Source: Escallonia rubra
Taxonomy: Eukaryota > Streptophyta > Magnoliopsida > Escalloniales > Escalloniaceae
Direction of reading: 5' to 3'
NCBI GenBank assembly: GCA_033065855.1
Contig: JAVXUO010001557.1
Location: forward strand, 45,090 to 109,089
DNA: 64,000 nt
The notes beneath the pieces are model-generated. The model had not been told where the DNA came from. It worked only from the letters and a program-made list of their open reading frames with translations, and made no database searches. Shown here one piece after another: positions 22,205-51,863 of this stretch; the first letter of the stretch is position 1; each line of letters begins with the position of its first letter. Made by a program: the position numbers and the translations under genes.

Positions 22205-24948
22205 ATGGACAAGAAATGGGTGACGCACTCTAGGGAAACTTATACTTATTGTGCTGGAGTTGACATGTCTCTGGATTTTGTATTTGCAAATACGACAACG
22301 ATCTTTAGAGAGATTTTGTGTCCGTGTAGAGATTGCGTTAATAGCATGTTCCGCACGCGTGAAATTGTGCAAGAACATTTGATAATAAGGGTATTTATGA
22401 GCAATTATACAGTGTGGACAGTTCATGGGGAAGGCTCGTCTTCTCGTTCAAATCGCATGGGAAATGATGTAGAGCTCAACATTGGTGTTGGTGGAGCTAT
22501 GCATGAAATGATAAATGATATCTTCACCAGCCGATCAGAGGACCCTTCTGCTAAAGTTGCAAACTTCTATAAATACATGAGCGATGCAAATCGACCATTA
22601 TATTCAGGGTGAAAGACTGAGACAAAGCTATCATTTATTGTGTGGTTATTTAATCTAAAATGCACCAGTAAATGGACAGACAAGTCTTTTGATTTGCTAC
22701 TTGGTAAGTTAAAAGAAATACTTCCTAACGGTGAGACATTGCCTGCCAACTTTTATGAAACAAAAAAGATGATTGGTGACTTGGGATTCAGCTACGATAA
22801 GATTGACGCTTGTCCCAATGATTGTATGTTGTATTGGAATGAAGATAGCACATTGAATTCGTGCAGGGTGTGCAAGAAATCAGGGTGGAGGATGGTTCAA
22901 AGGGAGGGGGAAAAGGAAGGAGAATCTGGAACTTGTAAAGAAGGAAAAAAAGTAGCTGTGAAGCAATTGCGTCATTTTCCTTTGATACCAAGATTGCAAA
23001 GGCTATATATGTCACCAAAGACGGCTGAATTAATGATATGGCATGATAAAAAAACGTCGAAAAGACGAAGGACAACGATTTTTCATTATGCCTTTGCTAA
23101 TACCTGGTTCAACTTCCCTGGTAATGATATTGACGTGTATCTTAGGCCGTTAATTGAAGAGCTCAAGGCGTTGTTCGATGGTGTTGAAACTTATGACGCC
23201 TTCACCAAAACTAACTTCAAGATGCGTGCAATGCTCATGTGGACTATTAGTGACTTCCCAGCTTATGCAATGTTGGCAGGTTATAGCACCAAGGGCAAGT
23301 TGGCGTGTCCAGTTTGTCAAGAAGATACTCGATCTTGTAGATTACGTGGTAAGCAATGTTATATGGCACATTGATCTTTTCTAGATCCAGATCACGTATA
23401 TAGGCTCGATAAAAAAAAATTTAACAGACTATGTGAGTATAGAGAACGTCCGGCTATTCGTTCGGGGTTTGATGTGCTTGAAGTGGTGAGCGACATAAAT
23501 GTTACGTTTGGAAAGGCTAGTAAAGCTACTGTGCCTAAGGATCCCAACCATAACTGGAGGAAAAAAAGTATTTTTTTTGAGTTGCCATATTGGAGGTTTC
23601 TCATCTTACGCCATAATTTGGACGTAATGCACATTGAGAAGAATTTATGTGATAATTTACTTGGAACATTGTTGGGTATCAAAGGGAAGAGAAAGGATAC
23701 TCTTAAAGCTCGCTTAGACATGCAAGATATGAACATACGACAACAACTACATCCAGTTAAAGTTGGTGTAGGCAAGTATAAGTTGCCTACTGTACGTTTC
23801 ACAATGTCTAAGGACAAGAAAAATGATTTTCTCCATGTGTTGAAGAATGTTAAGGTTCCTGATGGCTACTCGTCAAATATTAGTCGTTGCGTACTTGAAA
23901 AAGATGACAAGATTTCAGGTCTTAAGAGTCATGATTGCCATATCCTAATGCATCAAATTCTTCCGATAGCAATAAGAGGGGTACTGCCAGAGGATGTTTG
24001 CTCTGCTATAGTTGACATATGTCAATTCTTCAAAGAATTGTGTTCTAAAAATTACCGAGTAGAAGACTTTGAACGACTTAATTGGAAGATAGTATTGACA
24101 CTTTGTTATCTTGAGATGATATTTCCACAGGCTTTCTTTGACAAAATGGTCCATTTGCATGTTCATCTTGCGGAGGAGGCAAGGATCGCTGGACCTGTAC
24201 AGTATCGCCAAGTGTTTCCATTTGAAAGGTAAAAAGATTTTCATTATTTTTTATTTGATACTAGATGACACTTAGAGGTTAATGAAGTTTATATTACATG
24301 ATTATAAATATATGTTTAAGCTAAAACGCTATATTCGATGCAAGAGTCGCCCTGAAGGGTCGACTGTAGAAGGGTTATTAGCGAAAGATTTAAGATTTTT
24401 TCTCAATGTACTTAGAAGGTCCTCATCCAGCATGGACTTGACTAGAAAGGAAAGAAGATGGATATGTTGAAGAAGTGACTGGAATTTTGTATGTTTTTCG
24501 GTGCAAAGGTAGATTTTTAAGTAACCTTTCTATGACTGATCTAGATGTGAAGGATATGGAGACGACACATCGCTACATGTTCTTCAATTGTGATGAGTTA
24601 GAAGAATATCGAACGCAAGTAATTTTCTCAAAGCATTGTTAAGATATTTATTTTTGACTTAGTATATGGATAGCTGTTAGTTTACGATGTCATTGCAACT
24701 ATGTCAAAGTGTGTGCACAATGATGCTAGGAAGACGTAGAAAGAAACCTACGCCAAGGGAAGTTGATAACTGCTTAAAAAATGAGTTTGCCAAATGGTTT
24801 AGTGGTCATGTGAGTTCTCTTTATGCATTCAAGATTAGTTTTCTAAATTTGTATTTGAGTAATTTCTTATTACTTGATTTGTAATTGCACAGCTAAAAAC
24901 TTTGAGGGCTGGGGTTTCAAAGGAAATATTTGCCCTTGCACGTGGTCC
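22205..24948 (+). pseudogene. CACTA A TNP2 transposase, 5' part (broken)
   Basis: The start ATG at 22205 gives MDKKWVTHSRETYTYC, a typical Transpos_assoc N-terminus with the CPCRDCVN cluster near 22318-22341. TNP2 domain blocks follow: ETKKMIGDLGFSYDKIDACPND (about 22758-22823), NDIDVYLRPLIEELK (about 23124-23168), GYSTKGKLACPVC (about 23279-23317) and LDVMHIEKNLCDN (about 23618-23656). The DUF4218 part runs to VFPFER at 24229, where an intron begins. Later exons include YMFKLKRYIRCKSRPEGS (about 24308) and KKPTPREVDNCLKNEF (about 24739). Damage: TGA near 22610, a stop near 23372, and loss of about 65 residues normally found between LQRLY and the NDIDVYLRP block (near 23070-23110). CACTA B interrupts it at 24948; it resumes at 34978. 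Confidence 0.92.
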
Positions 24949-25265
24949 CACTACAAGAAAAGAGGGAATTAGCGACGGACTTTTAGCGACGGACAAAATT
25001 CCGTCTCTAAAAGTCTTTTCAGCGACGGAATACACCCGTCGGGTAACGTCCGTCGGTAAAACTATTTACCGACGGAATAATTCCGTCCGTAAAAATAACC
25101 GTCGGTGAAAGTCGGGTTTTGCCGACGAACTTTTACCGACGGGTGTATTCCGTCGGTAAAACTATTTAACAACGGAATAATTCCGTCGGTAAAAATACCC
25201 GTCGGTGAAAGTAGGGTTTTGCCGACGGACTTTTACCGACGGAATAATTCCGTCGGTAAAAGCCT
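24949..25265. repeat. CACTA B left terminus and subterminal array
   Basis: More than ten direct and inverted copies of TTTAGCGACGGA / CCGTCGGTAAAA follow the terminal CACTACAAGAAAA. CACTA C has the same array, partly deleted, at 49055-49250. Confidence 0.88.
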
Positions 25266-25425
25266 TAAATAGATCAGATCCCCTTCTTCTTTTCTTTCTC
25301 CCGTTGCTCTCTCTCTCTCTCTCACCGGCGATTTATCCTCCGTCGCCATCCCCGGCAACCTAGCCCCCGACGGAATATATCCTGCCACCGCCTCCGACGC
25401 CGCCACTGCCGCCCATCTTCAAAAC
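25266..25425. other. CACTA B leader with (CT)n tract
   Basis: CTCTCTCTCTCTCT at 25310-25322, then CACCGGCGAT and CCTAGCCCCCGACGGAATAT. The same block is in CACTA C at 49300-49390, so it belongs to the element and may be the 5' leader. Confidence 0.5.
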
Positions 25426-25590
25426 CGAAGGACCGCTGCTGCGACGCCACCACCACTGCGCCACCACCACTGCTGCGACGCCACCACCACTGCTGCGACG
25501 CCACCACCACTGCTGCGACGCCACCACCACTGCGCCACCATCACCGCGCCACCACCACTGCTGCGCCGCCACGACAACCGCGCCGCCCAT
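25426..25590. repeat. GCCACCACCACTGCTGCGAC minisatellite
   Basis: About six tandem units of GCCACCACCACTGCTGCGAC (20 bp), some shortened to GCGCCACCACCACT. Minus-strand frames of Trp/Arg/Val repeats come from this array and are not genes. CACTA C has only a remnant near 49392-49450. Confidence 0.75.
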
Positions 25591-25639
25591 CTTCAAATCA
25601 GCCCAAGTTTCTGTAAGTTTAGATATTCATGATCGGCTT

Positions 25640-25860
25640 TTAGATATTCAGAATCATCTCTTTACCGTTTGTAGATTCTCGTAACTCGTATGGTTTGATT
25701 TTTTTTTTGGTAATCATATGGTTTGATATTATGTTACCCGGTAAATGCAGTATATAATGAGAAGGGTTTGTAGATTCTCGTAACTCGTATGCTTGGCTTG
25801 TAGATTCTATTATGGTTTGTAGATTCTCGTAACTCGTATGCTTGGCTTGGCGGGGTTGAT
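25640..25860. repeat. Short direct repeats TTGTAGATTCTCGTAACTCG
   Basis: Three copies followed by TATGGTTTG or TATGCTTGG lie near 25670, 25768 and 25816, within CACTA B upstream DNA. Confidence 0.65.
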
Positions 25861-26023
25861 CGACTCTTGGAAGAGGATTCACCTTTTGGTTTTAAAAAAA
25901 GGCTTGGGGAATACGATAACACCAACACATAAATTAGCTTCATGGCCCCTTAGAAGGTGTTCAAGAGTTAGAAGTTACGAATTTTCCCATGATAAATTGG
26001 TAGATGTTAAAGAAAATGTGGTC

Positions 26024-26070
26024 TTAACCCTAAACCCTAAACCCTAAACCCTAAACCCTAAACCCTAAAC
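26024..26070. repeat. Interstitial telomere-type array (CCCTAAA)n
   Basis: About six tandem copies of the plant telomere heptamer CCCTAAA lie inside CACTA B. No such perfect array is seen in CACTA C. This is an internal repeat, not a chromosome end. Confidence 0.85.
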
Positions 26071-26450
26071 CGAACCCTAATTAGTCATAATTGAACCCTA
26101 AATTGATTGCCCCAATCTAACCGAACCCTAATTGAACCCCCTAATCCAACCGAACCCTAAATTGAACTAATTGAACCCTAAATTGAATGCCTCAAATCAA
26201 CCGAACCCTAAATTGAATCAATAGACCCCCCTAATTGAACCCTAAATTGAACTAATTGAATCCTAAATTTAATGCCTCAAATCAACCGAACCCTAAATTG
26301 AATCAATAGAACCCCCTAATTGTACCTAAATTGAAGTAATTGAACCCTAAATTGAATGCCCTAATCGAACCGAACCCTAAATGAAACTAATTGAACCCTA
26401 AATTGAATGCCCTAATACAATCGAACCCTAAATTGAAATAATTCAAGCGC
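26071..26450. repeat. Degenerate CCCTAAATTGAA tandem repeats
   Basis: Units such as GAACCCTAAATTGAATGCC and CTAATTGAACCC alternate with variable spacing. CACTA C holds a homologous run at about 50240-50745. Confidence 0.75.
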
Positions 26451-26884
26451 ATCGGATATGTGAATTTTGAACAGTTTTTAAAAAATTTGAACATTGCTCA
26501 TTTGTTTGATAATTTTAGGTTGTTAATTGTGCGTTTTATAATTGTGATTATTGATCGAAGATTTTAGGTTATTAGCTGTGCATTTGAAGTAATTGCGATT
26601 ATGAATTGATGATTTTAGGTTGTTAATTGATGATTTTAGATTGTTAATTGTGCATTGAGCATTTGAGATATTGAGATTATTGACGGAGGATGGGACCCAA
26701 TTGGATTGAATGTGTGATTTTTGTTAATTTTTATTGCATTGAGCATTTGAGAATTGAGAATTGAGATTGTTGACGGAGGATGGGACCCAATTGGATTGAG
26801 ATACCTGTTAGTTAACGCAGACACGGACACCACGTCTGATCGACGGTGTCCGACATTTAGAAAACAAATTAACGTATGCCGATG
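26451..26884. other. CACTA B upstream region with a repeated GACGGAGGATGGGACCCAAT block
   Basis: GACGGAGGATGGGACCCAAT occurs near 26681 and 26772. Homologous sequence is in CACTA C near 51013 and 51097. No gene. Confidence 0.5.
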
Positions 26885-27045
26885 TGTCCGGAGGTGCGTG
26901 TCGTCGGACACGTGTCCGGCATCGGACACGTGTCCGGAGGCGTCGGACACGTGTCCAAAGGCGTCGGACACGTGTCGATATGTGTCAGACACGTGTCGGT
27001 ATGTGTCTGACACGTGTCCGGAGGTGTCAGAAACGTATCGGACAC
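26885..27045. promoter_or_regulatory. Array of G-box palindromes (GACACGTGTC)
   Basis: About six copies of GGACACGTGTCC or GACACGTGTC lie in roughly 160 bp, spaced mostly about 20 bp apart. Their core CACGTG is the plant G-box, bound by bHLH and bZIP factors. CACTA C retains a shorter array at about 51180-51290. A promoter or enhancer role for TNP2 is inferred from position only. Confidence 0.55.
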
Positions 27046-27159
27046 CATATCGACACCCTATATGAGGTGTCGGAATTGAGGTTGTTGAATGTGCATTAAA
27101 TTTAGGTTAGTTAGGTTAATGCGACATTTTTAGCATGCACCCCCTGGAATCTAATCGTG

Positions 27160-28165
27160 GCTCCAGCGCTGGCTATAATTAGCCCTAATTAGTCCTGATT
27201 AACAATATTTTAGTAAATCAATTAACCCTAATTAGCTCTAACGAGCCTAATTAGTTTTAATTAACCCTAAGAACCTGATAAAATTCAAATTAGCTGTAAT
27301 TACCTCAAATTAGCCCAAATGAACCCAATTATGCGCATATTGATTGTAGTTAGCCTAATTAGTCATAATTTGCACTAACATAACCCAATTACGCCTAATT
27401 AGCGCTAGTTAGGACTAATCAACACTACTCGGCACCATCAAAACCCTAATTAGGACTAAATAACCCTAATTAGTCCTAATCAACCCTAATTAGCTACAAT
27501 TATTCGAAACTAGCCCTCACTAACATTAATTAGCTCTAACATAACCCAATTAAGCCTAATTAGCCCTAATTAGGACTAATCATCACTACTCGGCACAATT
27601 AAACCCTAATTAGTCATAATCAACCCTAATTAGCTATAATTATCCGAAACTAGCCCTCATTAACATTAATTAGCCCTAACATAACCCAATTAAGCCTAAT
27701 TAGCCCTAATTAGGACTAATCATCACTATTCGGCACAATTAAACCCTAATTAGGACTACATAACTCTAATTAGTCCTAATCAACCCTAGTCAGCTATAAT
27801 CATCCGAAACTATCCCTCATTAACATTAATTAGCCCTAACATAACCCAATTAAGCCTAATTAGCCCTAATTAGGACTAATCATCACTACTCGGCACAATT
27901 AAACCCTAATTAGGACTACATAACTCTAATTAGTCCTAATCAACCCTAGTCAGCTATAATCATCCGAAACTATCCCTCATTAACATTAATTAGCCCTAAC
28001 ATAACCCAATTAAGCCTAATTAGCCCTAATTAGGACTAATCATCACTACTCGGCACAATTAAACCCTAATTAGTCATAATCAACCCTAATTAGCTATAAT
28101 TATCCGAAACTAGCCCTCATTAACATTAATTAGCCCTAACATAACCTAATTAGCCCTAATTAGCC
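27160..28165. repeat. AATTAGCCCTAATTAGG satellite-like tandem array, 140/160-bp units
   Basis: The landmark CGGCAC recurs near 27430, 27591, 27731, 27891 and 28051, with spacings of about 161, 140, 160 and 160 bp. Two unit lengths therefore alternate, the shorter lacking about 20 bp. Each unit is built from smaller TTAGCCCTAATTAG-type repeats. The array is absent from CACTA C, where it falls inside the deletion. Confidence 0.8.
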
Positions 28166-28477
28166 CTTGTACATCCCATAATTACTCCATGTTGCCCAGA
28201 GATGGTTCAATTACTCGTTCTTTACAAACCCTGCCTTCTTTATATTAATTGTTGTTTTGAGAAGTCCATTGGCAACGAGATGGTTCAACTCGTTGCCAAC
28301 GAGTTCTATTTAATGTGGAATTGATAACATATGCAACGATCATTCTGCAGTTTTGATATTTCGGAAAGATTCTTGCATATCTTATCAATTTCTGAACACA
28401 TGCATGCATAAAAACCCTTAGTTCCCGTTCAAAGGTACTCATTACAAAGTAATGCCTTGTAATGAGCCTTTGGATGT

Positions 28478-28780
28478 CCAGTTTGGACAGTTTGGAAAAG
28501 CTAATTGTTTATAAAACAGTATTTTGACTCATGCTTTATGTTCTATGTCGTGGATATTTGGTACACGTTCTCGTGTGTTTCTCCGGGTGCATACAGATCT
28601 GGTGTTCTAACATCCGTCAAACCTTCCTGAGCAAGGTTAGATGAATGTTAGAACACCTAATCGATGTGGTGTACTTGGAGAAATGCGGGGAGGTGCTGCC
28701 GAATTTTCCACAGACATCGGACTAAGCATGAGTTATTCACTGTTTTATAAACATGTGCTTTTCTGAATGGGATAGGACCA
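28478..28780. repeat. Long imperfect inverted repeat upstream of TNP2 in CACTA B
   Basis: GTTTATAAAACAGT at 28507 is matched by ACTGTTTTATAAAC at 28739. ACTCATGCTT at 28527 has a counterpart near 28725. GGTGTTCTAACAT at 28601-28613 pairs exactly with ATGTTAGAACACC at 28645-28657, and AACCTT/AAGGTT pairs at the tip (28620-28638). The arms are about 145 bp and centre near 28629. It could be an inserted foldback MITE or a structured leader. Confidence 0.7.
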
Positions 28781-28908
28781 CTACCTGTTCAAGAGTGGAG
28801 GGGAAATATGTAGACGTGTTGTAACATTCATGCATTGATATTTACATCGGCAATGCTTAATCACTGGTCATTATTGAAGGTGGTATACAGTACGATAATT
28901 CAGTCGTC

Positions 28909-31900
28909 ATGTCAGTCGATCGAAGTTGGATGAAAAGGAAGAATGCTGAAGATTTTGAGTGTCGCGTTGACGAATTTCTCGACTTCGCTTATGCGCATCC
29001 TGCACATGTTGACCTTGATAAGATAAGGTGCCCGTGCGGTAGATGTGAGTTGTTGCACTGGAGAAAAAGAATTGAAGTAAAATGGCATCTTCGTCGGTAC
29101 GGTTTTATGGGTGGATACACAAGGTGGACGCAGCACGGGGAAACGATAGTATTGTCGTCCAACCTGGCTAGTCAAACTGAAGTTAGGGAGGAGGCACGAT
29201 ATGATTTTCGAGATATGATTATGGATGTTGGGCATGCTAATGTTGACTGGGGTAACGACAGGCCACAACCGCCGAACGAGGGGGCTCATCAGTTTTATGA
29301 GTTGTTGAGAGCTGCGGAAGAGCCGCTGTGGGATGGAGCTCCGAAACACACACGGCTGTCTGCGGTTAGTAGGTTATTACAGTTGAAATCAGACCACGGG
29401 CTGAGCGAGAAAGGTTTTAACGAGTTTGTTACCTTCATCAAAGAAATACTGCCCGAAAGTGAAAAGCTACCGCCGTCGTACTATGACGCGAAGAAGATGA
29501 TGAGGAAACTTGGGTTGAGCTACGACCGGATAGATGCGTGCAATAACGATTGTGTATTATTCTGGAAAGAGAATAAGGATTTGTCAATATGTCCAGTGTG
29601 CTCTCATTCGAGGTACAAACCGGACAAAGGGAAGAAGAAAAACATTGCATGGAAGATATTGCGATATTTCCCGGTCACACCACGGCTTCAGAGAATGTAC
29701 TACTCCTCCAGTACGGCTGAACATATGAGGGCTCACCGTGAGACTCGCAGCAACGATGCCGATGTGCTGACCCACCCAGCTGATGGAGAGGCGTGGAAGG
29801 AGTTTGACCGCAGGCATCCAGTTTTTGCTCAGGAAGTTCGGAATGTTAGACTTGGTCTGGCAACCGATGGGTTCAACCCTTTCGGTCAGTCTACTACGCC
29901 TTACTCCTGTTGGCCTGTTATTATTGTCCCTTACAACCTTCCACCAGGCATGTGCATGAAGAAGCCGTATATGTTCTTGTCGTTGCTTATTCCGGGGCCG
30001 AAGAGTCCCGGTAAGGACATAGATGTGTATTTAAGGCCGTTGATTGATGAGTTAAAACAATTATGGAATCATGGAGTCGAAACATATGATGCATCCCTTA
30101 AACAAAATTTTCAGATGAGGGCTGCTTTGATGTGGACTATACATGATTTCCCCGCATTGGGAATGACGTGTGGCTGGAGCACACATGGGAAGCTAGCATG
30201 CCCTGCTTGTATGGGCGTGAACCCCGGTCATACGTTAAAGCACGGCGGAAAGGCCTCGTGGTTCGGATGTCACCGTAAGCTTTTGCCACCGGGCCATCAG
30301 TTTCGTAGGCAGAAGGATAAATTTGACGGGACAATCGAGCGTGAGGTTGTCACGCTGGACTACCCATCTGGTGAAGAAGTACTCTCACACCTGGAGGCAC
30401 TTGATACTGACATACCACACGGTAAGGGTGTGCCGGATCAGAAGATTGCAGGGTTCGGGAAAGAGCACAACTGGAGAAAATTTTGTATCTTCTGGGAGTT
30501 AGCCTACTGGAGGACGCTCGTTATCCGAAACAACATGGATGTGATGCATATTGAGAAGAACGTTTTTGATAATGTGTTCAACACAGTGATGAATTTCAAG
30601 GGCAAATCGAAAGATCACCTTAAAGCGAGAAGGGATCTACAACAGTTGGGTGTACGCCGTGAATTGCATCCTCGGACAGTCAGTGGGAGGACCATACTTC
30701 CGAAAGCACCTTACTGTCTAGACAAGAAACAAGTGGAGAAGGTCTGTCAGTGGGTTAAGAATTTGAAGCTTCTGGATGGGTTTGCGTCCAACATATCTCG
30801 TTGTTGCAATGTTTCGGAATGCAAGTTCCAAGGGATGAAGAGTCACGACTGCCACGTATTCATGGAGAGATTCATTCCTATTGCCTTCCGGGGACTGTTG
30901 CCACGGGTTGTTTGCGAGACTTTGACTGAATTATCTCATTTCTTTCGAGATATATGCTCTTCTACGATCCGGGTGAGTAACATGGAAGTGCTTGAGAAGA
31001 ACATTGTGGTGACGATTTGCAAGCTGGAGAAAATCTTCCCACCTTCGTTCTTTGATTCAATGGAGCATCTGCCTGTTCACTTGGCATATGAAGCTAAAAT
31101 GGGTGGACCCGTGCAATATCGGTGGATGTATCCCTTCGAGAGGTAATCCTTAAATTGTTACAGTTGTTCGTTTACACTTAATGCGACATCTGTTATCATT
31201 GATATTCCACCTAACTCGATTCCCTAAACTTCTAGGTTCATGTTCCATTTAAAGAAAAAAGTCCGTAATAAGGCTCGGGTTGAGGGCTCAATTGCGGAGG
31301 CTTACGTAATGGAAGAACTTGTAAACTTTTGTAGTCAATATTTCGGTTCGGATGTTGGTACAAGGTTAAATCAACTAGGCCGAAATGATCCCGGAGCAAG
31401 CACAAATTTGGAAGGGCAATTGTCAATATTCAAGCAGTCAGGTAGTCCGTTCGGCCGAACGTATACTCGATGGCTAACAGATGAAGAGTACAGTGCTGCA
31501 ACAATATATGCCCTTCTAAATTGCGATGAAGTTTCGGCATTCGTTGAGTAAGTTAAAGTCTTAATTCACTTACATTGATGTACATAATTGAAAGTGTGTT
31601 AAGCGAGTTAGATGCATATTGGTTTGCAGTGAGTTCGATGCGGAATCTTTAATCACTGATCCCGCTGGACTTGAATCTCACCGGAAGTCACAATTTGTAC
31701 AGTGGTTCAAAATCCGTGTAAGATTATTTAACGAAATTATATTATGTGTTATATACAGTTCTGTGGCCAATTAGTATACTGATTTATCCTTAATGTTTAC
31801 CGTCATCTACAATAGGTTCAGTCAATGGATAGACCAGTGGCCTCCTGCTTGAAATTACTAGCCGAAGGCCCTAACAAACAAACATCCTGTTACGGAGGTT

Positions 31901-32565
31901 ATATCATCAACGGGTTTAGGTTTAACGTAAAAGATGATGACCGAACAAAACAAACCCAAAACAGTGGAGTCTTGGTCAACGGCGACTGTTATGCCGAGAA
32001 TTGCATGGATTTTTACGGAGAGTTAGATGAGATTGTTGAGCTAACATATCTGGGTTCCCAAAACCGCCTGGTAATGTTCAAGTGTACGTGGTTCGATGTC
32101 ACATGCAGCAGAGGAATCCGTGTTAGCTCTCAAGGGATTGTAGATGTCAATGTCAAGTCAAGACTTGCATCAGACGAGCCCTTTGTGTTTGCTAGTCAAG
32201 CTGTACAAGTCTTTTACGCGGAGGACGTCGCCAATCCCAAATCTCATTGGTATACAACTATCAAGTCCAAGAAATTGCCCGTGACATATGACAGTGAGCT
32301 AGACTCCTTTCAAGCCGACCAACCACGTGTCTTGTTCCCTGTTGAGGTCAACAACGAGGAGGACGATCTTCCTCTTCCAACAACACTTCTTGTGGGAGAA
32401 GAAGTCATATATGATGACGCGGAAGATGTTGAAAGTGTTGGAGATGATGTGACCGAGTCTACTGATGAAGAGGATGAATTAGAAGATGAAGAGGACGACG
32501 AGTCCCACGAAGAAGAGGGCGACGAGGATAGTGATGAAGATGATTCGCAAACTGAAAATGATTGA
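28909..32565 (+). CDS. TNP2 transposase of CACTA B (TNPD-like), four exons
   Basis: Predicted to be the catalytic transposase that cuts and joins CACTA ends in the nucleus. Exons by splice signals: 28909-31142, 31236-31547, 31630-31717 and 31816-32565; the joined frame is open and gives about 1127 residues. Residues 1-85 are Transpos_assoc (MSVDRSWMKRK, with a CPCGRC cluster). TNP2 proper covers roughly 190-470, with RLGLATDGFNPF near 315 and GKDIDVYLRPLIDELK near 368. MDVMHIEKN lies near 543. DUF4218 spans roughly 640-770 (exons 1-2) and DUF4216 roughly 925-1010, with TQNSGVLV near 927. The tail is strongly acidic. The first stop (31144-31146) lies in intron 1, so the 745-codon frame alone is not the full gene. 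The start at 28909 matches the family N-terminus. No disabling mutation was seen. Exon borders are predictions. Confidence 0.9.
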
Positions 32566-32741
32566 CTTGTAATGTTGTAACATCACGGGAAAAATGTAGT
32601 AACATTTTAGAACTTGGTGTTTATTGATGTGTTTTTGCACATTCGTTCATATATATATATATAGTGCCGATGATGATTTATGCCTAAATTATTGTTTTTC
32701 ACGTGTTAATGTCTTTGTATATAATCTATATGAAGTCAGAT

Positions 32742-34334
32742 ATGGATAGGATACGGGCTATTCGTGGCCGGGCTGGACGCCGAGCTGCTTCCTCCCCGAT
32801 TAGTCCCACCTCGTCATTGCCTACTGATGACGGGGCACAGAGTGATCGCGGACAGCCATCGGGGGCCCAGCCCCAGCTGTCGCCGTCACCGTCGCCCCAG
32901 CCATCGCCGTCGCCCCAGCCGTCTCCATCTTCCGTGGGTTCTACCTCAGGTATAGTTGATAACGGTGTTTCCTACATTTTCGCTAGCCTTATATTTGAAC
33001 TGTATTAATGTCTGTGTTTTGTAGGATCTCGACGAGGCCGTGGTCCGACACGCGGGGTACGCATCGACCCCCAGCGTAAACAGAGCGTTACGCTCACGCA
33101 GGAGGGCCTGTAAGTACTAAAAATATCACCTCATGCCTTATGCCTAAAAATTTTGGGTGTTAATTTATATTTGAACTGTATTAATTAATTTAATTACTTA
33201 TTTGGCAGGATCCTGGAGAATATGGCGAGGACGAAGATCGGCGTTCTTGTGAAGGGCCGATTCTTCGAGCCACGCCTGTACTGGAAGGAATGGGATGCCG
33301 CTGCGAGGGAGGCCCTATGGGAGGAGTGGCTGGTACGGTGAAGTATTTTTTTCAGCGTTAGTAAATGTTAAATTACAGTTTGTTTTATGTTGTTAATTTG
33401 TGTTATTGAATGCATTACAGGAGGGGTTCACGTTTGATACGCCTGAGCAGCAGGGACTGGGGCAGCAGGCTTTCTTTAATTACATCGGCAAGAATTACCG
33501 CCGATGGCTCCACGATGCACGGGACCGGGCGAAGAGGGCGCTGCCCGCGGGTGCCCCGATGACGGACATGACGAAATATCCCCCACATTGGATATCTCAC
33601 CGTGTATGGGGGGAGATGATAGATCGGTGGGCTGCGGATCCAGGTTGGGACGCCAAGAGTAAGAGCGGGGCTCAGAACAGACAGAACAGAGATCCGACGC
33701 ACACGGGGGGGTCGGTGCCACACGACATCGTCCGACATATGAACGCGGTCGAGCACCCGGATCTAGAGGAGGATGAGGTCATAGCTCTGACCTATACTCA
33801 GACGCACGTGCGGAAGAAGGACAAGGACGAGACGCACCAGGCGGGCGACTATATTTCAGATATTGCCCGGCGGATCGATGTGAGTCAATTTATTTAAGTT
33901 AATCTGTTTCTTTCTATCCTTGATGTCTGTTTCGTTAATTAATGCCATAACATATCGTTAAACCACTATTTTTGCAGGCCTCGTATGAACAGCTAAGGGG
34001 GTCCGAGCAGCAGTCCGGACAGCCATCAGCATCCAGTAGTACGGCTGCGAGTACTGGGGGGTTGAAGCGATGGCTGGATACGCCGGAGGTCGTGAATCGG
34101 CCGAAAGGCCGCATACGCGGCCTGCCTAGCACGACTCCTCATGCCGTGATAGGAGCGTCCTCACCCCCTGCTGCCCCTCCACAGACACCGGCTCCTCGGC
34201 CTCAGTTGCGCGAGGAGGATATCGAGCGCATTGCTACAGTGGTGTGCCGGATGATGAGGGAGCAGGGCACTGCTGGACCAGCCGCCCCGGCCCCGGATCA
34301 GCAGGATCCAGATCCGGGACTCGGGAACCCCTGA
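32742..34334 (+). CDS. Transposase_24 (Ptta/En/Spm) protein of CACTA B, five exons
   Basis: This is the second transposon protein, in the position where other En/Spm elements encode a protein that binds subterminal motifs; that role is inferred here. Exons by splice signals: 32742-32949, 33025-33109, 33209-33332, 33421-33879 and 33978-34334. The joined frame is open, about 410 residues. The N-terminus is basic (MDRIRAIRGRAGRR) and leads to a Pro/Ser/Gln linker. The conserved core includes YPPHWISHRVWGEMIDRW, a THTGGSVPHD motif and a predicted helical segment; the C-terminus is Pro-rich with EEDIERIATVVCRMM. ATGs at 32709 and 32730 are in frame and could be used instead. It lies 177 bp after TNP2 on the same strand. 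CACTA C has a broken homologue. Confidence 0.87.
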
Positions 34335-34579
34335 TGAGCCCCTTCCCGTGCCCGTTCCTAGCTTCCCCCCCCCCGCGCCCGGGTTGTATTCTTCTCCCCT
34401 CTCCTAACCGGCTATCTCCGGTTCCCGGCTTGTACATGTATTAGTTTCTTTTATAATAAATATTTTTTCTAATTGATTATATATTTTTTTCTGTATTTCG
34501 CTTATTGCGCGTTGTTGTTGAGAATTGTATTTCTGTACAGGTTTAGGTAATTGAAAAATAAAAAAAAAATTTAAAAAAA

Positions 34580-34977
34580 TATTGACTTTTGGCGACGGAT
34601 TTATTCCGTCGCTAAAATATTCCTTTCAATTAAATATTTAGCGACGGAATATTCCGTCGCTAAATAGCTTATTTAGCGACGGAATATTCCGTCACTAAAT
34701 ATTTAAACCGTCGCTAATTGGACGAAAAAGAAAATAAATTAAAATTTTAAAAATATAATTAGCGACGGACATTCCGTCGCTAATGAAAAATAAATCCGTC
34801 GGTAAAAATCACATATTTAGCGACGGATTTAAAAATTCCGTCGCTAAACTATTAGTGATGGGCTTTTGTACGAGGGATTTTTAGCGACAGTGAATCCGTC
34901 GCTAATTCCTTTAGCGACGGATTTTGGGCTTTTAGCGACGGATTTACCCGTCGCTAAAAGTCTGTTTTCTTGTAGCG
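34580..34977. repeat. CACTA B right subterminal array and terminus
   Basis: Many direct and inverted TTTAGCGACGGA / TCCGTCGCTAAA copies precede GTTTTCTTGTAGCG. The arrangement matches CACTA C at 53870-54213 almost block for block. Confidence 0.88.
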
Positions 34978-35813
34978 ATCCAAATGATATTGTGAAGAGA
35001 GGCAATGGCTATTTGATAAACGGATATAGGTTTCACATTGAGCGCCTCGAGCAAAAAAGAAAAACGCAAAACAGCGGAGTGTTTGTCTCCGCTAGTACAC
35101 GTGGTTATTCATCGTCTAAAGATATAAATCCCGCAGAAGACTTATTAGAATACTTTTGTGTTTTGGAAGATGTAATTGAGCTAGATTATTTTGGAGCAGG
35201 AAAGGTGGTACTTTTTAAATGCAAATGGTACGACACTATGAATCGAAATACAGGGATCAAAACAGATCCATATGGATTTACACTTGTTAACTCAAAGAGG
35301 TTTATTTATAAAGATGAACCCTTTGTGTTAGCCTCTCATGTGGAGCAGATGTTAGTCGTGGATCATCCAAGGGACAGTGGTTGGCGTGTGGTTATTTGAA
35401 CAAGGTCAAGAGACTTTTGTGAAGATGTGGAAGAGGAAGACAATGAACATGAAGAGTTATCATCCCTTTCCCCAAATGAGCCACAGGTTGTTCAAGATGC
35501 ATAAAATATAATAGGTGACATCACTTGGGCCAGAAATGACATAGAAGCAGAAATAGTCGAGGAACGTCCAGCAAAAAGGTCTAAAAGCGCACAACCAAGG
35601 GGGCAAGCTATAGATAGAGGGACTAAAAGGCGTAGATTTGAGACTTCTCTAGATGGTGGGGCTAAAAATCGAAGACTTGAAACCTTTGTAAATGACGAGG
35701 AGGAGAAAAAGGAGGAGGGAGACGAGGACGAGGACGAGGAAGAGGAGGAAGTGGCAGAGGAAGATGAAAATGAAAATGAAGAGGCAGAGAGTGATTCTAT
35801 GAGTAGTGATTGA
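34978..35813 (+). pseudogene. CACTA A TNP2 transposase, 3' part (continuation after CACTA B)
   Basis: It resumes directly at the right end of CACTA B with SDPNDIVKRGNGYLINGYRF. The DUF4216 region includes KTQNSGVFVSA near 35065-35098, DVIELDYFG near 35168 and DEPFVLASHVEQM near 35313. A TGA at 35397 breaks the frame after GWRVVI, and a TAA follows near 35502. The tail contains a basic KRSKSAQPRG stretch and a long Glu/Asp run, ending at TGA 35811. The acidic tail parallels that of TNP2 in B. Confidence 0.9.
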
Positions 35814-36222
35814 TTTTTTTCATGTGTTATTTATTTCTGAGTATTATCTATTTCTAAATAAAACTTCTAAATGAATCATATCTTTGTTTGTTTGTTTATT
35901 TTGTTTCTTTTAGTCACTAAGTTAAAGGTTAACTTCAATTTTGCTTTCGGCCATTATCTATTCCAATTTTGGTTATGCTTATATGTATATTTGTATTTAT
36001 AGTGTTTTCATGGCTAATAGATGGTAGCTTCGAGCACGAGGAGGTTGCAGCACACAAGTGCCACACGACATTCTCCCCAAATCAACGAGCAACACAATGT
36101 CGAGGTACAAACTGATGCCAATGTCGCTGCGATTACCGATACACCCAACATCGAGGATGAGGCGCTTGATGCTGAGATGACCAGTCATCTTGAGGGGTCA
36201 CAAAGTTACCCAACATCCATAG

Positions 36223-37345
36223 GTAAAGTAGAGTTTAAGAAGGAAAAAATTGATTTTATGCTATCTATATTGTCATAATTGCAGTCCATGTTTGGGGTGA
36301 TTGGATTGCTATCTATATTGTCATAAGAAGGTCGAAATTGCAACATAATTTATTTGTAACAAATCTGCATGGAAAGCAAAAATTGCAGAGGAAACAAGAA
36401 TTTTGAGTTTTTTGGTGTCTCTGAAATGGCTGCAAAATATGGCATTTTAAGCTTACATTAGTTCCATAGCTTTTCGATAGGGTTGTTTGGACCTCATCTT
36501 GAGTATATACAAGCCTAATCTTTTCATTGTAGCATGTTGAATGGCGTCATTAAATCAAACAGGAGAGTTCGCCTTTTTTATGTAATCAATGTAAGGTTTC
36601 TACCTATTTGTTCACTTGGCTCTTTTCCTGAGATTCATTGGGGTGAGATATTTCTGCATTTGAGGTGTTATGTTGTAACCTGGCAAAACTGTTGGACTTG
36701 GAAGAAATGTGGACTTTAAAGTTCTTTTAGAGTAAGGAGAACACTTTAGAGTACTACTGGATGTGATTTCGGTTAATCAGGTGTCTGCTGTTACGTCTTT
36801 TTTTCTTTTCGGAGAAAGCTCATACATATAGAGAGATTAGGTGATATTCGGCCGTTGGTGTAGCCCTACAAGTTTTTCTTTGCAGGTATGTTGATTTGCC
36901 TAGGTTAAAAACAAAAAAATGTACGTACATATATGCTGTGTATGTAGCAGTGTTTGTTCCCTCATTTCTAACCACTGTCTCTCTCTCATAGTCTTCTACC
37001 GTAGTCAATGTACATTGCTTTTCTTTCCTTTACTGTAACTAGCTCTTGCATAATTTTTAATTTTCCTCAGCAATATAAAGACGTCTCTAATTCATTAGTT
37101 GAAATGTCTCAAATAAGATGTACAAGTTTTACACTTACGACTATATTTGCCTCAACAAATTAGCGGAAAATAAAACTCAATAAAGAAAGTATCACTCTAC
37201 TAATACCAAATGCACTTGGCAGCTTCAAATGCACTTGGCAGCTACCTCCTGGTTGTATCCACCGCATAGGCAACCGGGGGGAGAGGGTGGAAGCAAAAGA
37301 ACAATTATATTTGAAATTAAGATGTTTACCAGGAAAAAATCTTAC
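36223..37345. other. Enlarged intron of CACTA A, unidentified insert sequence
   Basis: No frame over 65 codons and no recognised element. CTATCTATATTGTCATAA is duplicated (36260 and 36309), and GCTTCAAATGCACTTGGCAG is duplicated in tandem at about 37202-37241. Part may belong to the same capture as the CtpA exons. Confidence 0.4.
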
Positions 37346-37780
37346 TGCAAGAGCTCTGCTGCATCATATATGCCCATGGCTTCTGTACTTCTATCATCAA
37401 TTTCCATGATTAGATCTCCAAATGAAACGCCAGTCCTATTTTCAGGACCTCCTGGGGCAGCTGAAATAACCACCAACCCAGGAGCTGATCCATGATTTCC
37501 TGTTGGGTAGGCAATCGATATCCCTACACCCGTTAGATATGCTTGTGTTCCTGACTGCCTTCAAAGACATCCTTAAGATTTTAGGGAGAAGATCTCAAAC
37601 AGTACATGAGAAAAGAGAAGAGACAGTCCTTTACTCTGAGACACTTGAATTCCTCAGGCTCCAAAAACCTAGTGAAAGGGTCATCCAGAGTACCAAGCAT
37701 CTTCTTTATAGCCTGATCTGAATGCATATGCAGTGCAAATTTTTGTCTCAGCAATGTAGTGACTTCCAAGAGATGCAAAT
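37346..37780 (-). pseudogene. Captured fragment of a C-terminal processing peptidase (CtpA-type) gene
   Basis: Read on the minus strand, an exon from about 37780 to 37635 encodes AIKKMLGTLDDPFTRFLEP and ends EEFKCLR before a GTAAAG donor. An 80-bp intron ends in AG. A second exon (37554-37346) encodes TGVGISIAYPTGNHGSAPG, LVVISAAPGGPENRTGVSFG and DAAELLQ, ending at a GTAAGA donor. These are signature segments of plant chloroplast CtpA proteases, which mature photosystem II D1 protein, and the second exon covers the start of the PDZ domain. The protease catalytic Ser/Lys region is absent. Because the intron is kept, the copy came from genomic DNA, not from mRNA. It lies antisense within an intron of the CACTA A Transposase_24 gene. 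It may be transcribed in antisense but cannot make a protease. Confidence 0.82.
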
Positions 37781-39744
37781 TAATAACGGCCGTCTAGCAC
37801 TTAAACTTGCAACCTTACTAGAGGGGCTGAAATATGGGCGAGGGAGACACAAAAATATGTTGGATACGACAGTTGGGGTCATGCTAATACTGGTGCATTT
37901 CGTGAGCTTCGTACTTTTATTGGTTGTGTGGCACGTTCGAGCAAGTTGTTACCAATTAATTTACACCAAGTGGGCTGGTACAAAGAAAAGGCTTGGGAGG
38001 AGATCGAGGTATTATTAAGTTATGCATTTTCTAAATTTATCCGAAGCTATTTGAAATTTTTTGATGTTATTGTACTCGTGGTCACATAAGAGATTTACAA
38101 CGGATCATCCTTTTGCTAAAACTGCTATAATGCATACTCTTAACACCCGTTGGAAAGATTTGAAATGCTCGCTAAAAAGGAAATTCTTCAAGCCGGATGA
38201 TATATCAGATTCAAATGCACTTGTTGCAGCTGAAAAAAGGACAGATTGGCTACAGTGGCAAACCTTGACGAGCTATTGGCAGCGTGAAGAAGTTATAGTA
38301 TCCACTAAACTTACATTTATTAACATAATTCATGTTTTTATTTGATACCTACTAATTAATGTGCTTTAAATTACAGAAGGAGGCAAAGTTAAACAGCAAA
38401 AACGCGACGAGCATCAAAGCAGTTCCACACACGCTAGGCCGAACATCCAGTTCACAGAAGGAGGAAGAATATGTACGCACTTTTACTACCTTGTTATACA
38501 TTACTATACTACTTTTTGGGACTAAATCTTAATGTAGACAGATGTTATTGTGGTTTTGAAGTTTGCGACTCATAATGTTAGGCAGGGTAGAGCAACAATG
38601 CGGGTTGTGAGTCGCAAATCAAAGAAACTCAAAAGAGATGTCCTCCTACAAGCGCGTAATAATGCTGTAAGTTGCTTCACTCACTTTTCATTTGTTGTAC
38701 TCCTATCTTTATCTTTCGGTCTCAATCTTTTATTGATAATGACTTTGTTTTTGTTTGTCTTTTAGGATGATATCAAAAGACAGTAACAGGAGGCCTCATT
38801 GCATGAGGATGATAGCAGTCCAAATGATGTTATTTCCACGGGCATGGGTAAGGACCGGCATGGTAGGGTGAGGGCAATAGGGCCCATGGCCAATATTTCG
38901 AACACATGAGGTTCTTCCAACACTGTGAAAATGCAAGAACAACTTTGTTCTCTTAAGAAGCTGCTGGCCGGAATGAATGAAATGAAGGCATGAATGGCGA
39001 AGATGGAAGAGGCTCTTGAACGACTTACATGGAACAGTTTTACGGACCCTGCTAGTGGTTCTAGTCAGGTACACGCACACAACATAGTGATTTCATATGT
39101 GAATTCCAACAGCAATATAGTGATTGCATATGGATATTTTCTCTTCTTAAACCTTTGAGACAGTCATCTCCCTTCCCTTTTGAGAAAAATGAAGCAGATA
39201 ACTGTGTGCTCTTTTTGATGAGGAGTAGTGCTAGACACTGAATTTCTTCGCCAATTAAAATATTAAATGTTATGCATGCGATACAACCACGTGTGCGCGT
39301 ATCCAATGCATAAAGGGGAGACAACATTGAGATGTAAAAAAGATCAATAGTGTGCTTTGCTTTGCCCCAGAGAGTCAGCAGAACAGGTTGGAAATGAATT
39401 AGGTGATCTGCATTGTCAAAGCACGCATGCATGTGTGCTTCTTTTACGAAATGCTCTGGTCATGGGTGTCTTCCAGTGGTGGTGTAGTCTTAGAAACATT
39501 CCTCAACAGTTGAACTACATGGTTATGCTTCACCATTTTGGCCATCTCTTGTTCTTCCTAAAAATCTTTCTTCTTTCATGCCTCTGAAAGAATTGGAGAT
39601 GAGTTGTGTGATTTTCCGTTGATCAAACTTGCCCCAGTTTTAGATGTTGTTGACAAAATCCGATTTCCAACTGCATCCTTTTATTGTAAACCATGTATAA
39701 TAAGCACGTGCAAGTAGCTGGTGAGGTAGGCAATGACGGTGGAT

Positions 39745-40195
39745 CTATTTTGGAATTGTGGTGAGGGTGAGGAATTTGCAGAGAGAGACAAAAGGATATA
39801 AAGAGAAAAAGGAGGCAAATGTTGTCTATTGTGGATGTGTTTTGGAATTGTGGTAAGGGTGAGGAATTTGCAGGGAGAGACAAAAGGATAAAGAGAAAAA
39901 GGAGGGCAAATGCTGCCTGTTGTGCTTCTTTTTGGAATTGTGGTGAGGGTGAGGAATTTGCAGGGAGAGACAAAAGGATAAAGAGAAAAATGAGGCAAAT
40001 GTTGTCTGATGTGCTTCGTCTCTTGATATATTTTTTGTGACTTACATGCATGTTGTCTGTTATGCTTCTTCTCTTGATATCTTTTTTGCTAATGTCCACA
40101 CACTCACCAATTCTGTGACTTGCATGCATGGTTCTGTTATGCTTTTTCTCTTGGTATCTTTTCTGATAATGTTCACACTCTTACCAATAATCTCT
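39745..40195. repeat. Two short tandem arrays in CACTA A
   Basis: A unit of about 90 bp with TTTTGGAATTGTGG, GAGGAATTTGCAG and AGAGACAAAAGGATA is present three times (about 39749, 39839 and 39930). It is followed by two copies of a roughly 75-bp unit with GACTTGCATGCATG-like and TTCTCTTGATATCTTTT text (about 40040-40190). Frames crossing the arrays are repeats, not genes. Confidence 0.7.
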
Positions 40196-40402
40196 AACAA
40201 GACTTGTTCTAGTATCTTTTCTGCTGGGTGTTTTAATTTTATGATCATTCACTTTGAGAAACTTAGTGTTTGCATTTTTATTAAATTAAGGAAGTTAGAC
40301 GAACTTCATGGGAATAATTGAGTTGTACACTAATGGTTGATTGATTATGTCACAGGCTAATGTGGAGGCAAATGCAAATAGATCGAGTAATGGGAGTGAC
40401 TG

Positions 40403-40794
40403 ATATGTGAGTGATTGATGTTGCAAATTGCGCTACGTTTCATCTTTTGGATAGCTATATATGTAGGCCTTTTGCCCCCTTCTAAGGTGTTTCTAGTGAA
40501 ATTGTTTATAGTTAACTTAAATTGTACAGCAACTTGACCTTCGTTTTGTTTGTAGCTATACAATGTTTTATGCAATGACATTTCAGTGCATGGCTTTGAT
40601 ATTTTTATGGCTTGTTAATAAAGTTGAGTAAGTACTTTACCTTGTTAACAAGTTGGATTATTTGGCTACATGTCTTTAATTGAGTTGATAGGTATTCAAC
40701 AATTCATTAAAAAAAAATTGCATATCTTTAGTAGCGCTTAGTGTGCGCTGTCAGAAGTTTTGCATTATGTAAAAAAAAATGAATAATATAAATA
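40403..40794. other. 3' non-coding part of CACTA A
   Basis: AT-rich, without recognised features. It probably holds the end of the Transposase_24 transcript. Confidence 0.4.
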
Positions 40795-41082
40795 TGCTAT
40801 AGCAGCGGGGTGATCCGCTTCCATAATTTCAAATTTAAATTCAGGTGGCTACCTATAGCAGCGGTTGAGACCGCTGCCATAAGGGGGGCTTTTAAGCGCT
40901 AATTTTGGAAACAATATATAAGCGGTAGACCGCTGTGGTAAAGGCCTTGGACTGGTGTTGTATGTCTATGGCAGCGAGGCCTATAGCAGCGGCCGGGGAC
41001 CGCTGGGAAAGACTTTGGCAGCGGTTGTTCACTCTATAGCAGTGGTTTTTGACCGCCGTTATAGCCTCTTTTTCTTGTAGTG
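40795..41082. repeat. CACTA A right subterminal array and terminus
   Basis: Repeated CTATAGCAGCGG and GACCGCTG motifs in both orientations, then TTTTTCTTGTAGTG. The motif matches the left end at 19449 and differs from the B/C motif. Confidence 0.82.
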
Positions 41083-41768
41083 GATGGTGCGTATTTTTGG
41101 CGTTATAAGGATGGTCTGTTAGTAGGGTTAAGCTAATACCTAATTGGACTTGTCAGTGCACACGTGTATATGAATATGTAAAGCGTATTGAGCACTTTCG
41201 GGGTGGCTTTGCTAGTGTACTGCTCATGTTCAATATTTCATGTTTCTGTTTTATTGCACCTAAAGTGTTTTGAAATGATTATTGATTTAAGGGATTGAGT
41301 TAATACTCATCCCTAAGTTTATACTGAAATGCATTGGTTTTATTTGAAAAATCATTTAAAAAAAATTATCAGTTGACTGTAAATGTAAAATCGTCCGAAT
41401 CATTTTGTTATTTTTAAATCCTTGAACGACATTACTGGGCTCTCAAAAGCTCACTCTCCTTTGATTTCCTTTTTCACATGTAAGAACCAATAATAGGATA
41501 TTTGGAATGATTAGAGCCTGAATAAGAAGTCGAATATAAGTTTTATTATTTCGTTTAGCTAAGCCCCTGCGAGGGAAAATAATGTTTAACTTAGTTTCAC
41601 GAGTATTTAATTTTAGTGTTTTAGTTAAGAGCAATGTAATTGAGAGTTAGAGTTACTGTATATGCTCAGATACACATTTGGTGTTTCCTTATCGAATTTA
41701 GGTAATCAAACGATTAAGTGATTAATTGATCGACTATTTAACATTTCAAAAAATTTCGGAATGTTACA
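41083..41768 (+). mobile_element. Right piece of the second forward LTR unit
   Basis: It starts with the target duplication gat and continues GCGTTATAAGGATGGTCTGT (a few bases on). It ends AAATTTCGGAATGTTACA at 41768, the LTR-family 3' end. Together with 9188-9518 and 18276-19448 it makes one interrupted unit whose true start is missing. Confidence 0.7.
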
Positions 41769-47138: not shown

Positions 47139-49054
47139 GTGCTAGGTATGCATGTGTTATGTGTATGTGCAGAGCGTGTCCTGTGTGTGTGTGGAGGGAG
47201 TGAATGGTCGTGAGTGAGTGTGATGTGTTTTGGGTAGTGGACACAGGAGAAGATGAAATGGGTTTTTGTGAGTTGTACTTAGCGTTACGTTCTCCCTGCG
47301 CATTGGATAGCACACGGTTATTGCTAGCAAGTAAAATTTTACAATAGGGTATGTTAGGCCATATTAAAATTCATGAAAAAAATTTATAATTTTATGAGAT
47401 CGTATGTAGTTTTAATAGTTTATTTAAGTTCAGATTTGAAAAATCTTTTGGAGTCTTTAAAACTCATGAAAATGTTCTGAAAAAAATTAGAGTAATGTTA
47501 GTATAAATAAGTCTCAGTTTAAGTTTGATGATTTTTAGAGTTGATTTGTTATCATTTCTGTATCGCATTGATTTTAGAAAAAAGAAAATTTTAAAAATAG
47601 TTTTGATGTCTTTTAAATTCTAATTTTAATTTTTAAAAGTATTCTAAAATTGTTACAAAAATTATGGGACTTTATTTTCAGTCAAAAACAATTATGGCTA
47701 TTTATGAGGTTTTCTCGCATTTCAAGAAATTATTTTAATTTTATTAAAAAATATTTAAAATTTATATTTTTTATTTCTTATGCAATATTAAGCCATAAAA
47801 AATGCTTAATATCATTTCCGAGTTATTTGTAAGCCTCGAAGAGTGTGTCAGGACCCGCTTTAGGTTGTGTCATTCCGAGGTTTGAAGTGAGCATCGTTTG
47901 GATAATTGATATTAAGGTTATGGTGTAACAGTGTAGATTGTTTTCTAATAAATGAATTGGTATTTTAGGTAAATTCAAGGATTTTGGATCGTGGTTAATT
48001 AGCTTCGCATAGCTTGGATCGAGGTAAGGATTTTCTCTCTGAACCCTATTTCATTGTTCTGAAAACAAATGTTTTATAATAACAGCTTTATGAACTTCAT
48101 TGAGCTCTGATTTTATTATTGATATAAAAATATAAGAAATTCCATCTGAACCTTATTTCATCACTTTGATTTCAAATGCTTTATAATAACAGTTTCACGA
48201 ACTACATTGATTATTGACTTTTATGAGTGATATTAAAATATTTTCAAATGCTCGTAAAAACCTAATTTGAGCCTTATAGCAATCATTTGGAATTCTTTAT
48301 TCTCATCTGTTTTACTTAATTCAATCATTGTAAGACATTTTGAATTGTGTTTAATTCCTTGAATATTGACATGAGTTAGTAAACCTGGGAATTACAAGGA
48401 TGGTGTGTATTGTTAGCATTATAAGGATGGTCTGTCAGATAGATTGAACTAGTACCTAAATGGACCAGTAAGTGTATATATGCATATGTAAAGCATATCA
48501 AGCACTGCCGGGGTGACTTTGCTATAGTGTACTGTTCATCTTCAATGTTATCTATTTATATTTTATTATACCTGAAGTATTTTAACTGTTAATTGAGAAA
48601 TTGAGTTGATACTCATCCATATGTTTATATCGAAACAACTGTGATTTCATTTGAAAATCCTTGAAAAAGATGTATTTGACTTGAATGTAAAATCGTTTGA
48701 ATCGCTCGTTTTGTTTAAATCTTTGATCGACCTTACTGGGCTCTCAAAAGCTCAATCTTGTTTGACTTCCTTTCCACGGGTGATATCTAGCATTAGGTTG
48801 CTTGAGTATGTATTAGAGACGAGCGAGGGTAACTAATTTAAGTTAGTGTTGCTCTTTAGAACCCCTACATGGGTGAATGTTATTATTTAAATTTTTAAGA
48901 CTGAGATTGATGTTTTATTTACGATAGTTTACTAAAATTATGATAAATGGTTTAGTTGTTCTGACAGTTTGTAGTATTATTTGGTTAAGTTTTGGGGCTA
49001 ATATTGTCTTATTGTATATGATCGAGTGAGTGTTGATTCCGAAAATTCCGGAAT
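47139..49054 (+). other. Body and 3' part of the solo LTR, no gene
   Basis: AT-rich LTR body aligned to the other units, with AGGATGGTGTGTATTG and AGGATGGTCTGTCAG repeats near 48398 and 48423 and CTTACTGGGCTCTCAAAAGC near 48731. No coding sequence. Confidence 0.6.
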
Positions 49055-49250
49055 CACTACAAGAAAAGAGGGAATTAGCGACGGACGAAATTCCGTCGCT
49101 AAAAGTCTTTTCAGCGATGGAAAAACCTGTCGATGAAAATCCGTCGGTAAACATATTTAACGACGGAATAATTCCCTCGGTAAAAATACCCGTCGGTGAA
49201 AGTAGGTTTTTGCCGACGGACTTTTACCGACGGGTGTGTTCCGTCGGTAA
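49055..49250. repeat. CACTA C left terminus and subterminal array
   Basis: The same TTTAGCGACGGA-type motifs as in B, with about 100 bp fewer repeats. A longer (CT)n tract follows at 49299-49331. Confidence 0.85.
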
Positions 49251-49295
49251 AGGCCTTAAAAAGATCAGATCCCTTCTGCTTTTCTTTCTCCCGTT

Positions 49296-49334
<39 letters not shown>

Positions 49335-49389
49335 GGCGATATTTCCTCCGTCGCCATCCTCGGCAACCTAGCCCCCGACGGAATATAGC

Positions 49390-50230
49390 CTGCCACCGCC
49401 ACTGCCGCCATCTTCAAAACTGAAGGACCGCCGCCACCACTACCGCGCCGCTCATCTTAAAAAACTAGAGGTATGGTACATCTAACCTTAACGTAATTTC
49501 ATTGTCAAAGAATTGATGTGTTTATGTATTGGGAAGTTAATCATGTTAAATATCCCTATTGTGATTAGAAGTTAATCATGTTAACGTAATTTCATTCTCT
49601 CTTGTGATTAGAAGTTAATCATGTTAAATATCCCTGAAAAGAATTGATGTGTTTTCACCATTTGTGGTTTATGTATTGGGAAAATTTGGGTAGAATGATG
49701 GAAAAGAGCATATATCATATAATCAAACCAACTGACTTCGTATATATTAGTTATAGTGTGAAATTATGTTAGCTTGTGACTTGTGAGTAGTATTGGAGTA
49801 TGCAAATTAATAGTAACATTATTGTGACCATTACATTAGAAATAAATTGTGTGGTTTTGTTGTACTTGGTTCAACAGGTCTCTCGATCAAAAAAGCTTTT
49901 ATGATAAGTGAGAAAGCTAGAAAGTTTATTGATATATATAAAAAAATTAATTGCTTGCGGATTCAAGCTAGAAAGTATATTCATTTCAATTGGTCCCACC
50001 CGAACCTGCTACGGGCCTAATGGGCTCGAGGGTCACCGGCCCAGGCACATTTGACAAATACGGGCACTGAGTGCCAGGTCGTAATTGGTAAAATCAATAC
50101 AAATTACGGCGAAAACTAAATTATGTAGAACTCTAGATATGAAGTTCATTTCTAATTTCACTACAATCCTACATGATATAGCACTTATCGTACAACCCGA
50201 ACATCAACAAAGACGGTCCTGAAAGTTCAT
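49390..50230. other. CACTA C sequence without a counterpart recognised in B
   Basis: It includes GAAGTTAATCATGTTAA duplicates near 49535, 49570 and 49610. The segment at about 49980-50220 has GGGCCTAATGGGCTCGAG text. No gene is seen. Confidence 0.4.
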
Positions 50231-50239
50231 AGTATTTCT

Positions 50240-50745
50240 CTTTAAACCCTAAATTGAATGTCTTAATCGAATCGAACCCTAAAGTAAACTATAGAACCCC
50301 TAATTGAATGCCCTAATCCAACCGAACCCTAAATTGAACTTATTGAACCCCCTAATTGAATATCCCAATTCAACCGACCACTAAATTGAAGTAATTGAAC
50401 CATAATTGAACCCTAAATTGAAGTAATTGAACCCTAATTAAACCCAAATTGAATGCCCTAATCGAATCGAACCCTAAATTAAACTAATTGAACCCCTAAT
50501 TGAACCCTAAATTGAATGCCCTAATCCAATCGAACCCTAAATTGAACCCCCTAATTGAACCCTAAATTTAATGCCCTAATTCAACCGAACCCTAAATTGA
50601 ACTAATAGACACTTAAATTGAAGAAATTGAAACATAATTAAATCATAAATTGAATACCCTAATCAAATCGAATCCTAAATTAAACTAATTTATTCCCTAA
50701 TTGAACCCTAAATTGAATGTCCTGATACAATCGAACCCTAAATTG
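50240..50745. repeat. Degenerate CCCTAAATTGAA tandem repeats in CACTA C
   Basis: Homologous to B 26071-26450 but longer and without the perfect CCCTAAA telomere-type run. Confidence 0.75.

Positions 50746-51860: not shown

Positions 51861-51863
<3 letters not shown>

Follow-up and report, generated by a model that had tools for sequence, protein, structure and literature searches.

Gene-fragment capture is a documented behaviour of CACTA transposons (PMC1947982, PMC4290129). The soybean element Tgm-Express1 has been described as a CACTA element with five captured gene fragments (PMC1947982), 140 capture events have been reported for wheat chromosome 3B (PMC4290129), and the aberrant excision of closely spaced elements has been proposed as a mechanism of capture (PMC13317346). 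Here we describe a 64,000-nucleotide stretch of Escallonia rubra DNA (the window), in which a piece of a C-terminal processing peptidase (Ctp) gene lies inside a CACTA element, referred to below as the outer element. According to our analysis, the piece is a real, ordinary kind of gene-fragment capture, and it adds one clear record of a CACTA fragment capture that has kept the donor intron, within an intron of the second gene of the element. Among the matches listed in our literature search (titles and the starts of abstracts), there was no published report of a CACTA element with a Ctp fragment, which is not a proof of absence.

The described systems resemble this locus in different respects. 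Tgm-Express1, as reported, is likewise a CACTA element in which host genes are represented by both exon and intron parts, with GT-AG borders; however, gene fragments make up that element, and splicing joins its exons to a host transcript (PMC1947982), whereas here a single recognised fragment lies reversed in an intron and remnants of both element genes are kept. The Tpn1 family of Ipomoea also comprises CACTA elements that capture genic regions, but in its non-autonomous members the internal sequence is described as replaced by host DNA (PMC5105172), in contrast to the gene remnants retained here. The CACTA elements of Chenopodium combine transposase domains with host gene fragments, as does the outer element, although their fragments are reported from the 5' region (PMC8978399) and not from the intron of the second gene. 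In Pack-CACTA elements, CACTA ends flank captured coding DNA, but Pack-TYPE elements by definition have no transposase match (PMC8903248), while the outer element still matches tnp2 (Transposase_21, E = 3.2e-35). The piece of a host gene found between the two ends of the outer element is one feature expected of transduplication.

Structure and identity of the peptidase fragment

The fragment consists of two minus-strand exons and the intron between them (Table 1); all splice sites given here are predictions. Spliced in phase, exons A and B gave 96 stop-free codons and a split last codon. This product was compared as a query of 98 residues, one of them a flanking residue on the acceptor side. 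It matched positions 52-144 of the 388-position chain of 1FC6 with E = 2.4e-23 and 49% identity, and the alignment had no gap where the exons join. 1FC6 is the photosystem II D1 protease of Scenedesmus. Without splicing, the two parts were found in different frames, exon B alone with E = 3.4e-10 in one frame and exon A with the 37 nt before it with E = 1.1e-3. The PDZ domain behaved similarly, reaching 28.2 bits in the spliced fragment and 22.4 bits in the unspliced frame of exon B, that is, above and just below the Pfam cut-off of 23.2. Of 5000 mononucleotide shuffles of the 96 codons, only 4 were stop-free. The intact frame fits a recent capture and would also fit constraint.

Table 1. Coordinates of the fragment, its carrier element and the element inserted in it (positions in the window)
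Feature	Position	Strand	Remarks
Peptidase fragment, exon A	37717-37635	minus	83 nt; alone E = 1.1e-3 to the D1 protease
Retained donor intron	37634-37555	minus	80 nt; GT-AG (GTAAAG...GGCAG)
Peptidase fragment, exon B	37554-37346	minus	209 nt; most of the PDZ domain
Probable end of the upstream donor intron	37718-37790	minus	ATTCAG end; outer border approximate (inferred)
Two identical 18-nt copies	37207-37243		19 nt apart; about 100 nt from exon B
ORF2 exon 1, predicted	36021-36222	plus	splice model
ORF2 first intron, holding the fragment in reverse	36223-37823	plus	1,601 nt; ATAG/GTAAAG...ACTAGAG/GG, in phase
ORF2 exon 2, predicted	37824-38008	plus	splice model
ORF2 late exon, predicted	38766-39068	plus	three in-frame stops: 38784, 38907, 38991
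Outer CACTA element carrying the fragment	19449-41082	plus	21.6 kb; CACTA/TAGTG ends; GAT duplication
Outer transposase (TNP2) gene, left part	22118-24232	plus	Transpos_assoc, Transposase_21, DUF4218: three successive same-frame pieces
Outer transposase gene, right part	34978-35399	plus	DUF4216 (PF13952, E = 9.2e-23, ORF 34848-35396)
Inner CACTA element, interrupting the outer transposase gene	24949-34977	plus	10 kb; its tnp2 gene is open over 761 aa

On the minus strand, the acceptor ATTCAG stands before exon A and the splice donor GTAAGA after exon B, so the captured piece probably begins and ends within donor introns. An extension of exon A further upstream was not favoured, since 25 added residues raised the score by only 1.4 bits (from 85.3 to 86.7); this stretch therefore looks like a donor intron ending in ATTCAG. 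Our results bear out the earlier note on this DNA, which had described an antisense, intron-bearing piece of a C-terminal processing peptidase gene with two exons and clean splice sites inside a CACTA element. The span that it gave, 37346-37780, is right in its coordinates, but the 63 nt on the 37780 side are probably intron beyond exon A.

The earlier identification of the protease as CtpA needs more caution. Against the NCBIfam models, which are bacterial, the fragment, a short piece, scored 74.7 bits with CtpC, 69.9 with CtpA and 64.0 with CtpB. By comparison, the D1 protease scored 81.1 bits with CtpA and 77.4 with CtpC, and all five cyanobacterial relatives tested (of 30) also scored best with CtpA. 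The fragment is thus best matched by CtpC, while the D1 protease and the tested cyanobacterial pieces are best matched by CtpA, and this weakens the name. The fragment comes from a plastid-type C-terminal processing peptidase gene, but calling it CtpA is unsafe, and its donor is not established as a photosynthesis gene, though it may be one.

Relatives of the fragment were found in genome contigs, where 30 of 114 pattern matches were confirmed and all 30 were named as cyanobacteria. None of the 19 pattern matches in viral contigs was confirmed, and no relatives were found in plasmids. The fragment is nearer to the D1 protease (48.9% identity) than to the cyanobacterial relatives (36.6 to 41.3%, five sampled values of 30). 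In an alignment of the 30 cyanobacterial pieces and the D1 protease, it keeps 24 of the 38 columns that are conserved at 95% or more; among the 14 departing columns, three have no residue of the fragment, and some others are common to the fragment and the D1 protease.

A complete peptidase gene at this site found no support. The Peptidase_S41 catalytic domain, required in a functional S41 peptidase and lacking in the fragment, was absent from a six-frame Pfam scan of 34978-41082 at E 0.05. Scans of 34978-41082 and 19449-22117 in six frames at the same threshold revealed no further Ctp domain, so a whole Ctp gene or pseudogene is unsupported in the stretches and frames scanned. When the ORF2 intron was compared with the D1 protease in each minus-strand frame, only exon B and exon A (with its 37 nt) matched, and the third frame gave nothing at E 1.

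The carrier element and its second gene

The ends of the outer element, CACTACAAGAAAA and TTTTCTTGTAGTG, form CACTA...TAGTG terminal inverted repeats identical over at least 13 bp, and the triplet GAT stands at both sides as a 3-bp target site duplication. When its two flanks are joined, they align across the junction with three related empty-site copies of a host repeat in the window (10829-9924, 75.7%; 8170-9038, 74.4%; 48133-48773, 74.8%), and in the third of these the matches of the left and the right flank abut exactly, at 48401/48402. The subterminal motif AGCGG/CCGCT occurs 8 times in the first 252 bp and 9 times in the last 303 bp, but not once in 37200-37830. Together with tnp2 and a second gene, both with stops, the terminal inverted repeats, the target site duplication and the subterminal repeats are the features by which it is recognised as a CACTA (En/Spm) element. 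A search of 19449-41082 against Rfam gave no matches at the gathering score.

The outer element is degenerate. The left part of its transposase gene has in-frame stops at 22610 and 23372, and the related inner gene is open through the same domains, which makes an intron at these stops unlikely. The inner CACTA element splits this gene, leaving Transpos_assoc, Transposase_21 and DUF4218 on its left and DUF4216 on its right. With stops in both outer genes and the insertion in the first of them, the outer element as it stands is unlikely to make working proteins from its own genes. The same stops and the same insertion also weaken the earlier idea of antisense RNA arising by transcription of the transposase gene.

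The second gene, ORF2, holds the fragment in its first intron. That the host intron belongs to a Transposase_24 gene was correctly seen as far as the borders are concerned, as they lie near those in our splice model. The label itself is probable rather than secure, because the spliced ORF2 model with the later exons reached 27.3 bits (E = 4.4e-6), just under the Pfam cut-off of 28.7. The intronic position could let the fragment persist while the coding sequence of the element is spared, which one copy cannot show.

A late ORF2 intron holds tandem repeats, at 39744-40188, with units of 90 bp (3 copies) and of 77 bp (2 copies). Within the 5' portion of the outer element, an 82-codon open stretch on the plus strand (20489-20734) follows an acceptor-like CATAG. 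It had no PDB match up to E 10 and no Pfam match; its resemblance to a plastid transit region is an impression only, and it may be a second captured piece.

Origin and possible function of the fragment

Our analysis points to genomic capture by the outer element as the likely origin of the fragment. An ancestor of this element would have captured genomic DNA of a nuclear gene encoding a C-terminal processing peptidase of plastid type, comprising the end of an intron, exon A, the next intron, exon B and the start of a further intron. The piece would have come to lie in reverse in the first intron of the second gene and would have travelled, as in transduplication, with the element, which then inserted at the present site, later received the 10-kb CACTA insertion and the stop codons, and now most likely carries the fragment as an inert passenger. 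The reading draws on the gap-free spliced match, the in-phase GT-AG intron with its flanking splice signals, the element ends with GAT and the three empty sites, as well as on the lack of a further Ctp exon in six frames of 34978-41082, the stops in both outer genes and the nested insertion. As to its remaining steps, we infer that the capture took place before the element last transposed, that the gene which supplied the piece is nuclear and belongs to the same genome, and that the fragment is without function. The retained intron indicates that genomic DNA, and not cDNA, was the source, as had been proposed earlier, and a genomic source is the most likely one; capture of a retrogene was rejected, due to the presence of the GT-AG intron, whose removal gives the gap-free match at the junction.

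Part of the evidence could also be read differently. The fragment may have been copied as filler DNA into an element already in place, in the course of the repair of a double-strand break, without ever moving with the transposon. The degenerate state of the outer element would agree with such an event, as would the 18-nt duplication near exon B, which as a scar of capture is a guess. Self-BLAST (E 1e-10) revealed no second copy of the outer element within the window, and hence no other "A-type" copy, in the terms of the earlier note, with the same insert; the lack of a second carrier of the fragment in the window speaks for filler DNA and makes movement with the element less certain. Nothing in our data counts directly against filler DNA, and the documented capture by CACTA elements only sets the prior; we regard this origin as unlikely. 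Arrival on a smaller transposon (Helitron, MULE or hAT) nested in the ORF2 intron is considerably less probable still. This intron is long and mostly without assigned sequence, which leaves room for such an element, but when 36150-37900 was searched for 11-bp terminal inverted repeats flanked by 5- to 10-bp duplications, a single AT-rich pair with a 5-bp duplication emerged (36401/37182), and it ends before the fragment. A separate repeat search showed only inverted pairs that are short and imperfect, so that neither search gave a convincing small transposon.

Whichever way it arrived, the fragment probably does nothing, in view of the absence of a catalytic domain, the broken state of both outer genes and its location in an intron. 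The opposite view, that it is functional and its antisense or small RNA regulates the donor peptidase gene, seems to us very improbable. It would draw on the antisense orientation of the fragment to the second gene; however, RNA from introns is as a rule removed by splicing and broken down, stops interrupt both outer genes, and the 10-kb insertion splits the first of them. For Tgm-Express1, internal transcription starts were thought unlikely by the authors (PMC1947982). On the other hand, sequences captured by the Helitrons, Pack-MULEs and Sirevirus elements of maize have been reported as siRNA reservoirs able to silence the donor gene (PMC13317346). Silencing by the fragment is thus conceivable, but there is very little chance that antisense or 21-24 nt RNAs tune the plastid peptidase gene with an effect visible to selection. 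If small RNAs of the fragment did reach the donor, the locus would offer a case in which to test the control of a plastid protease by transposons.

Other mobile elements in the window

Three CACTA elements with recognisable ends were found in the window. The inner one belongs to another family than the outer element, with 14 and 15 copies of the motifs CGACGG/CCGTCG; its right end is TAGCG, not TAGTG, and its flanking triplets, TCC and ATC, show no exact match. The third (49055-54213) has AAT at both sides, contains DUF4216 and is 87% identical to the inner element over 2.97 kb. Having about half the length of the inner element, it is probably an internal deletion derivative.

A diverged repeat family, with copies about 67-81% alike in most pairs, occupies 7750-11283, 18445-19448, 41083-41472, 47303-48773 and 56778-57232, and served as the insertion target of both the outer and the third CACTA elements. 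A Copia-type retrotransposon (12119-16932) is bounded by repeats that are 96.8% identical (12119-12457 and 16591-16932), and carries RVT_2 in a 753-aa frame and a GAG-pre-integrase domain. In addition, two direct repeats of 420 bp (59083-59501 and 63176-63593), 96% identical and 4.1 kb apart, are possibly the LTRs of another element.
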